Shown piece by piece: positions 33,959 to 35,569 of a stretch of 39,084 nt of DNA (position 1 is the stretch's first letter; the number at the start of each line of letters is the position of its first letter). The stretch covers positions 1 through 39,084 of the forward strand of contig CAJXZP010000038.1 in the NCBI GenBank assembly GCA_913062955.1. The letters run 5' to 3'. The notes beneath the pieces are model-generated. The model made no database searches and was not told where the DNA came from. It saw only the letters and a program-made list of their open reading frames with translations. A program made the position numbers and the translations under genes. The DNA is from an uncultured Flavobacteriales bacterium. Lineage in GTDB: Bacteria; Bacteroidota; Bacteroidia; Flavobacteriales_G; Salibacteraceae.

Positions 33959-35569
33959 CTAGTAAATTTTTAATCGTTCTGCCTGAACTTTTGGATTGGC
34001 CATGTACTCGTCATAGGTCATTTGTTTGTTCACCACCCCTTTTGGACCGATTTCAATAACCCTATTGGCTACCGAATTAGTAAAGGTATGATCGTGAGAA
34101 GCAAACATCAAAGTTCCTTTAAAATCAACTAATGAATTATTAAAAGCTTGGATAGATTCCAAATCTAAGTGATTCGTTGGTTCGTTGATCATCAAGAAAT
34201 TTGCTTCGGCAAGCATCATTCTTGAAATCATACATCTCACCTTTTCTCCTCCGGAAAGAACATTGGCTTCCTTGAAGGTTTCTTCACCGGTAAATAACAT
34301 TTTGCCTAAGAAACCACGAACATATACGTCATCCTTATTTTCGGAGTATTGTTTTAACCAATCAATCAAATTGTCTTTAGTGTCAAAAAATGATTCGTTA
34401 TTTGATGGTAAATAAGCAGTAGTCATAGTCTGACCAAAGTAAAAACTACCGGCATCTGCTTCCGAGTCGCCATTTAGAATTTTAAATAACTCGTGGATGG
34501 CCAATGTGTTTTTACTAATCACCGTAATTTTATCTCCCTTGGTTACATTTAAATCAAGGTTGGAGAATAATGGGGTGCCATCTAAAGATTTGGCTAAACC
34601 TTCAACATGTAAAATTTGATCTCCTGCTTCTCTTTGTTGGTTAAAGAATATGGCGGGATACCTTCTTGATGAGGGTTGAATATCCTCTACATTAATTTTA
34701 TCCAATAATTTTTTACGAGAAGTTGCTTGCTTGGATTTGGATGCATTGGCACTAAATCGGGCAATAAAATCTTGTAATTCTTTTTTACGGTCATCCGCTT
34801 TTTTATTGGAGGATTGTTTTTGTCTTAAGGCCAATTGACTCGACTCATACCAGAAACTGTAATTACCCGTAAAGGTCTTAATCTTCCCAAAATCAATATC
34901 CGAAATATGAGTGCAAATCGTATCCAAAAAGTGTCTGTCGTGAGATACTACGATAACGGTGTTTTTAAAATCTAATAGGAAATCCTCTAGCCAAGATATG
35001 GTTTCCATATCCAAATCATTGGTAGGCTCATCCAAAATCAGAATGTCAGGGTTACCAAATAAAGCTTGGGCTAATAACACTCTTACTTTCATTGATCCCG
35101 GGATATCTTTTAATAGTTTGAAATGATCTGCTTCTTGAATGTTCAAATGACTTAACAAGGAACTGGCATCCGATTCTGCATTCCAACCGTCCATTTCAGC
35201 AAATTCACCTTCTAACTCAGAAGCCTTGATTCCATCTGCATCCGTAAAATCTTCTTTTGCGTAAATCTCATCTTTTTCCTTCATGATTTTCCATAACTCA
35301 GCATGGCCCATCATGACGGTGTTTAGAACCGAAAATTCATCAAACTCTGTATGCGTTTGACGAAGTACCGCCATCCGTTTTCCAGGCTCAATACTTACAT
35401 GTCCCGAATTTGGAACAATGTCTCCTGCTAGTATTTTTAAAAAAGTTGATTTACCGGCTCCATTTGCACCAATTACACCAAAGCAATTAGAACCATGAAA
35501 CTTGATGTTAACTTCATCAAAAAGAACACGTTTACCGTATTGTAAAGAAACATTATGTGTAGAAATCAT
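33959..35569 (-). CDS. ybiT: ABC-F ATPase, YbiT-like, with degenerate second ATP site
   Basis: A 536-residue soluble protein with two ABC domains and a P-site-tRNA-interaction-type linker; ABC-F proteins act on ribosomes. Domain 1 has intact Walker [10 protein letters not shown] (residues 34-42), the YbiT-type signature [15 protein letters not shown], and Walker [13 protein letters not shown]. Domain 2 keeps the signature LSGGEKVRC and H-loop, but the Walker A position reads [13 protein letters not shown] (no GxxGxGKS/T) and Walker B reads [12 protein letters not shown] (Asp replaced by Asn, Glu kept). The linker [16 protein letters not shown] matches YbiT. A -7 box TACTTTTG lies on the minus strand at 35597-35590. 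Confidence 0.92.

Follow-up and report, generated by a model that had tools for sequence, protein, structure and literature searches.

A YbiT-clade ABC-F protein from the Flavobacteriales with one consensus and one degenerate-looking ATP site

How many of its two ATP sites does an ABC-F protein need in order to work on the ribosome? In the accessible part of PMC11282234 these proteins are described as closing on ATP, binding the E site and leaving by hydrolysis. Elsewhere, in accounts available in part, they close on two ATP molecules and are usually trapped by mutation of both catalytic glutamates (EQ2). A clade from which one of the sites has gone makes it testable which of the two hydrolyses matters, and the locus analyzed here raises that prospect. 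It lies in a window (the whole stretch of DNA that was analyzed) of 39,084 nucleotides from an uncultured Flavobacteriales bacterium. The gene is a minus-strand open reading frame, translated from its ATG:

33959..35569, minus strand: YbiT-clade ABC-F protein, 536 aa (Pfam ABC_tran in two stretches and ABC_tran_Xtn; top PDB sequence match 9njf)

The protein has the architecture of the ABC-F family, with two ABC domains in one soluble chain and an ABC_tran_Xtn linker. The Pfam cut-offs are passed by PF00005, in two stretches (102.4 bits), and by PF12848 (75.4 bits). By sequence the closest PDB entry is that of E. coli YbiT (9njf, E = 1.3e-151), and this also ranks first in Foldseek, 43% identical in the alignment. 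The VIA-align Z scores run VgaL 33.9, 9nlf 32.4 and 9njf 31.9, other ABC-Fs thus scoring at least as well as E. coli YbiT; every one of the top 25 Foldseek and top 20 VIA hits is an ABC-F or eEF3-type protein. Against 41 other ABC-Fs the YbiT set forms a monophyletic group that includes E. coli YbiT (tree support 0.987), placing the window protein within the YbiT subfamily. The best NCBIfam model is NF011646, the PRK15064 equivalog, at 635.8 bits; the curated cut-off of 762 bits is missed, and the protein is therefore not filed under that equivalog. The same cut-off is passed in none of 21 genomes searched, the window's own among them, and in one of 14 control genomes. Resistance models for Vga, OptrA, Sal, Msr and Lsa all score far under their cut-offs on this protein, and the general antibiotic-resistance ABC-F model NF000355 gives 323.6 against a cut-off of 380.

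ATP sites of ABC proteins are composite, the signature of NBD1 facing the Walker motifs of NBD2 (PMC7756269, in the part available). We define site I as the A-loop, Walker A and B, Q-loop and H-loop of NBD1 together with the LSGGE signature of NBD2, and site II as the Walker A and B, A-, Q- and H-loops of NBD2 together with the signature of NBD1. The A-loop and Q-loop columns of NBD2 were assigned by inspection of the alignment. The elements, located by alignment except where stated, are as follows:

35537..35539, minus strand: NBD1 A-loop Tyr11, site I, kept
35444..35470, minus strand: NBD1 Walker A, residues 34-42, site I, consensus
35357..35359, minus strand: NBD1 Q-loop Gln71, site I, kept
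35090..35104, minus strand: NBD1 signature, IPGSM (156-160) in place of LSGGE, half of site II, eroded
35027..35044, minus strand: NBD1 Walker B, Asp180 and catalytic Glu181, site I, kept
34940..34942, minus strand: NBD1 H-loop His210, site I, kept
34652..34900, minus strand: interdomain linker region (Pfam; low column entropy of residues 240-315)
34583..34585, minus strand: NBD2 A-loop position, Leu329, adenine-stacking aromatic lost, site II
34490..34516, minus strand: NBD2 Walker A position, SKNTLAIHE (352-360), site II (alignment; model with shortened loop)
34403..34405, minus strand: NBD2 Q-loop position, Ser389, Gln lost, site II
34244..34258, minus strand: NBD2 signature LSGGE (438-442), consensus, half of site I
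34181..34198, minus strand: NBD2 Walker B, FLMINE (458-463), Asp replaced by Asn462 and Glu463 kept, site II
34094..34096, minus strand: NBD2 H-loop His492, site II, kept here and replaced in 40 of 202 YbiT-clade proteins

Consensus residues occupy 17 of 17 positions in site I and 5 of 17 in site II. A sequence-only reading of the locus had described an NBD2 lacking the Walker A consensus and retaining its signature and glutamate, and this is what the alignment gives: S352-K-N-T-L-A-I358-H is present where GxNGxGKS is expected, the loop glycines being gone and the lysine replaced by Ile358, while LSGGE and Glu463 are intact. The same reading called domain 1 canonical, which is correct for its Walker motifs and wrong for its signature, where the eroded stretch spans residues 153-163. 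The losses at the Q-loop and A-loop of NBD2 did not figure in it. Since the NBD1 signature faces the Walker motifs of NBD2, the damaged motifs of both domains fall in the single site II. This dismantling from both sides is the strongest argument for an asymmetric ABC-F protein with one putatively inactive site, as had been proposed.

Does this make the protein a degenerate-site ABC protein? One composite site is consensus and the deviations cluster in the other, as in that class; the catalytic Glu of the degenerate site is replaced there and is kept here. Thus the protein resembles degenerate-site ABC proteins but is not filed as one on the catalytic-Glu criterion. It also departs from the description of ABC-F proteins in the accessible part of PMC11282234, under which both domains carry consensus Walker A and B motifs: NBD1 has both and NBD2 has neither. 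We treat that rule as a generalization rather than a definition; its Walker A part fails in 181 of 202 YbiT-clade proteins.

Those 202 come from 271 loci, gathered from the window's phylum, from contigs of named genomes (597 matching stretches, of which the best 80 were kept) and from the phyla to which a Bacillus and a Spirochaetia genome belong; all 33 places found by the Bacillus-anchored search were used, and 32 of the 35 found by the Spirochaetia-anchored search. Three loci gave no hit, and the remaining 268 yielded 248 unique proteins, from which six partial ones (L003, L005, L065, L066, L067 and L267) were dropped before classes were counted. The line for the YbiT set was drawn at 400 bits, whereby L256 and L257 (392 and 390 bits) were counted with the other ABC-Fs, and L176 (421 bits) and L064 (which has a late TGA) were counted inside. 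The alignment thus holds 201 YbiT-clade proteins and the E. coli PDB chain, plus the 41 other ABC-Fs. Phylum groups were assigned from record titles or from the phylum of the anchor genome, and the window was placed in its phylum by its nearest named relatives, L134 and L138.

As a sample of the sequences gathered and not a census, the 202 proteins divide by their NBD2 Walker A into 21 that are consensus, 59 that are altered with the lysine kept and 122 that have lost the lysine. The consensus group comprises ten from Pseudomonadota, four from Spirochaetota, three from Acidobacteriota, two from the window's phylum and one each from Chlamydiota and Gemmatimonadota. The lysine is kept in the altered motif of 33 Bacillota, 22 Spirochaetota and four Bacteroidota proteins, and is lost in 91 from Bacteroidota, 25 from Bacillota, five from Spirochaetota and one from a MAG labelled Desulfobulbaceae. 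Clustering at 97% identity leaves 193 YbiT clusters (21 consensus, 57 lysine-kept, 115 lysine-lost). When 198 genomes were drawn evenly from the window's phylum, matches at E 1e-90 were present in 57; the 55 that were read gave two consensus, four lysine-kept and 49 lysine-lost proteins, the last number including the partial L267. All 41 other ABC-Fs sampled have a consensus NBD2 Walker A, as do the four other ABC-Fs found in the window's genome.

Similar degenerate sites had been suspected in other Bacteroidota. The aligned NBD2 Walker motifs bear this out, the alteration being general in that phylum (95 of 97 YbiT-clade proteins, 91 of them without the lysine), and the trait reaches into Bacillota and Spirochaetota. 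The Walker A alteration extends across the clade. The Walker B change noted in the sequence-only reading is real but is an extra confined to rare lineages: Asn stands for Asp in 5 of 202 proteins, all from Bacteroidota and always where the lysine is lost, requiring three parsimony changes. Asn462 recurs in both other same-genus genomes listed, in L042 (89% identity) and in the partial L067 (94%). Comparing the sequences, we read the Walker B Asn as a late addition to a site that would already have been broken. Sequencing or assembly error, or chance, is ruled out by the 95 of 97 non-consensus Bacteroidota proteins together with Asn462 in three genomes of one genus.

The Bacillota members of the clade offer a link to function. 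In the accessible part of PMC11381351, B. subtilis YkpA helps translation through charged stretches, and its deletion leads to stalling there. The Bacillus YkpA/YbiT relatives L123 and L128 fall inside the same non-consensus clade as the window protein, and from this together with the YkpA phenotype the Bacillus-type members probably work in the cell. Bacillota differ from the window protein in that 33 of 58 keep the lysine in the altered NBD2 loop.

Across the 202 proteins the mean number of consensus positions kept in site I is 16.76 of 17 in the consensus class, 16.97 in the lysine-kept class and 16.99 in the lysine-lost class; for site II the corresponding values are 13.95, 10.64 and 8.12. 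The site-II A-loop aromatic is present in 21/21, 5/59 and 3/122 of these classes and in 41/41 other ABC-Fs, so that the residue that would stack on adenine is absent from 173 of the 181 non-consensus proteins. At site I the equivalent aromatic is found in 21/21, 54/59 and 120/122, and in 29/41 other ABC-Fs. For the Q-loop Gln of site II the counts are 21/21, 1/59 and 4/122. The catalytic Glu of site II is lost less often, being replaced in 33 of 181 non-consensus proteins; in 18 of these it has become Gln, the residue of the laboratory EQ trap. Among the 21 consensus proteins the sole change at this Glu is that of the engineered E. coli EQ2 chain, and the sole missing H-loop His is a gap. Natural replacements other than Gln and Asp also occur, the Glu position being occupied by Gly, His, Lys or Arg in L081, L271, L249, L230, L264, L146 and L154.

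The SGG of the NBD1 signature is intact in just 3 of the 21 YbiT proteins with a consensus NBD2 Walker A, and hence a poor NBD1 signature can accompany an otherwise complete site II. E. coli YbiT (9njf, 9nlf) belongs to the same clade as the window protein, is of similar length and has an eroded NBD1 signature of its own (VAPGW); it differs in that its NBD2 Walker A, Q-loop and A-loop are consensus, and the solved chains are EQ2 mutants according to the entry titles. Given those letters in place of LSGGE, even E. coli YbiT may be asymmetric. VAPGW-like signatures accompany a consensus NBD2 Walker A in L162-L165, L167-L169 and L171, as in the E. coli YbiT chain. A strict order of events, signature first and then Walker A, is ruled out by L123, where the LSGGE of NBD1 is intact and the lysine of NBD2 is absent.

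The altered loop was also examined in predicted structures. Two AlphaFold models, both nucleotide-free, were made with 52 and 43 sequences chosen from those gathered, the NBD1 of the same models serving as consensus control. That of the window protein has a mean pLDDT of 89.2 and a pTM of 0.82, with pLDDT 90 at residues 351-360. Its NBD1 P-loop takes the usual form, with a helix from Lys40. In NBD2 the strand runs to 351 and the helix begins at 355, leaving three loop residues and starting the helix three residues before the lysine position. We see no other loop that would restore nucleotide binding to NBD2, whose predicted P-loop is shortened and its helix lengthened. The model of L128, a Bacillus relative that keeps the lysine, likewise has a short predicted NBD2 loop and a helix from 355. 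The shared shortening suggests remodelling of the loop ahead of the loss of the lysine, and a loop already remodelled would explain how the lysine could be lost so often.

The history of the site was traced on a tree built with the site-II columns masked. The 41 other ABC-Fs did not form a clade as first rooted, and the common ancestor of two of these was taken as the root. In the resulting tree the 181 non-consensus proteins group as a single clade, with weak support (0.586). From a lysine-bearing root the lysine state requires 13 parsimony changes, gains and losses not being separated, against a mean of 49.6 for shuffled labels.

Repeated and varied loss of motifs might be expected of a domain in decay, its gene heading for loss. 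NBD2 does vary more than NBD1, and in the relative L064 (genome G217) one in-frame TGA lies late in NBD2, the match stopping at residue 495 of 536. Yet in L030/L033, the single pair with unsaturated synonymous sites, dN/dS is 0.026 for NBD2 and 0.029 for NBD1; moreover the NBD2 LSGGE, which serves site I, is near invariant, and the state is common to three phyla. In five other pairs the synonymous sites are saturated in one or both domains, with pN of 0.03-0.10, and pN is higher in NBD2 than in NBD1 in all six pairs, slightly so in some. Median column entropy among the 91 lysine-lost Bacteroidota proteins is 0.63 for residues 240-315 (the linker), 0.79 for NBD1 and 1.16 for NBD2, where the Q-loop position is among the most variable. 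Comparison of the sequences thus indicates that NBD2 is under purifying selection, as judged by dN/dS from one pair, yet less constrained than NBD1. We regard decay as very improbable, and a pseudogene is ruled out by the purifying selection on NBD2 in that one informative pair. NBD2 is thus needed, probably because it supplies the LSGGE and one half of the clamp.

We consider the window protein to be an ABC-F translation factor of the YbiT clade in which one ATP site works, and put the probability of this at about three in four. Site I would bind and hydrolyse ATP. To judge from its residues, site II very probably does not hydrolyse ATP, and we lean towards its not binding ATP in the normal way either; instead it would provide a fixed contact between the domains. 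With one ATP bound at site I the clamp would close and the protein would move into the E site of the ribosome, its linker reaching the P-site tRNA as the linkers of ABC-F proteins do; a single hydrolysis would then free it. In this scheme ribosome binding, the one-ATP cycle and the empty site II are what we infer, membership of a ribosome-acting group being suggested by homology.

The most serious competitor is a site II that does not hydrolyse ATP but holds it near-permanently, as in CFTR, MRP1 and TAP, giving a machine of two nucleotides and one hydrolysis. ATP is still bound at the degenerate sites of the transporters covered by PMC7756269 (accessible part), and Glu463, His492, Asn354 and the D-loop Asp187 are all kept in the window protein, which leaves room for residual nucleotide binding. 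A charge that might contact phosphate is also present at position 353, which is Lys or Arg in 77 of the 91 lysine-lost Bacteroidota proteins. On the other hand this residue is found in 3 of the 31 lysine-lost proteins from elsewhere (it is absent from 28) and in 11 of 41 consensus ABC-Fs, counts that rule out a shift of charge to 353 as a general compensation. Furthermore the A-loop aromatic, the loop glycines, the lysine and the Q-loop Gln have all gone, and the loop is predicted to be shorter. We therefore hold a permanently occupied site II to be possible, and doubtful.

Another proposal is that the remodelled pocket regulates the factor through a newly acquired ligand or partner, such as another nucleotide or a contact with rRNA or protein. 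The lysine-lost Bacteroidota proteins do keep a recognizable pattern of residues, with Ser352 in 81 of 91, Lys or Arg 353 as above, Ala357 in 78, and Pro388 and Phe395 in all 91. But a buried structural contact would give the same pattern, and nothing in it points to a particular ligand, so that we rate this proposal as improbable.

Returning to a single working site, we favour by a small degree the broader view that the YbiT-type ABC-Fs of Bacteroidota, Bacillota and Spirochaetota are an old one-ATP clade, in which the second site is nucleotide-free and packed shut, letting the lysine vanish about a dozen times. If so, these proteins would be natural proof that the ABC-F ribosome cycle needs only one hydrolysis. 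Single-site mutants exist for some resistance ABC-Fs. Under a one-site reading of the window protein, mutation of Glu181 alone should trap the factor and mutation of Glu463 should be silent, and EQ2 mutants of such proteins would in effect be single mutants.

Both ATP sites of ABCE1 are consensus. That protein is not an ABC-F. It too is soluble and acts on the ribosome, and its two ATP sites differ in function (PMC6124641, accessible part). EttA shares the ABC-F architecture and the proposed E-site mode (PMC8782954 and PMC11282234, each in the part available); it differs in having consensus motifs at both sites and in engaging two nucleotides, unequally at first (PMC8782954, same part). Degenerate-site transporters likewise have non-consensus motifs in one composite site and consensus in the other (PMC7756269, in part); they are membrane proteins that keep ATP at the degenerate site, and their hallmark in the available part of PMC7544095 is loss of the catalytic Glu. 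In contrast, the clade of the window protein consists of soluble factors in which the A-loop, P-loop, lysine and Q-loop are lost and the Glu often stays. ABC proteins with one degenerate site are well known among transporters; an ABC-F clade that has lost its binding apparatus more often than its catalytic Glu appears to be new. We found no description of a degenerate YbiT/YkpA site in the literature searched, the scope of which lay outside bioRxiv, most subscription journals and supplements, nor one of a degenerate YbiT-type site in the accessible part of the ABC-F survey PMC6723617.

The neighbourhood of the gene gives no clue to its function. Directly downstream on the same strand is a gene for a DivIC-like septum protein (33564-33872, minus strand). 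Among the 271 loci, of which 150 exceed 3 kb and have a YbiT match of more than 50% identity, the window's own loci and L067, from the same genus, are the only ones in which this neighbour was found; it was not found in L042, also of that genus. A conserved operon is ruled out by so confined a pairing.

On the other side of the gene there is a direct repeat of 75 nt, at 36412-36486 and 36589-36663, whose copies are 95% identical with a start-to-start spacing of 177 nt. The only tRNA gene of the window, tRNA-Ser(UGA) (36647-36732, minus strand; ARAGORN), is overlapped at its 3′ end by one copy, over 17 nt, while the other copy has no tRNA. The repeat may be a duplicated tRNA tail with its terminator, or the scar of an element.
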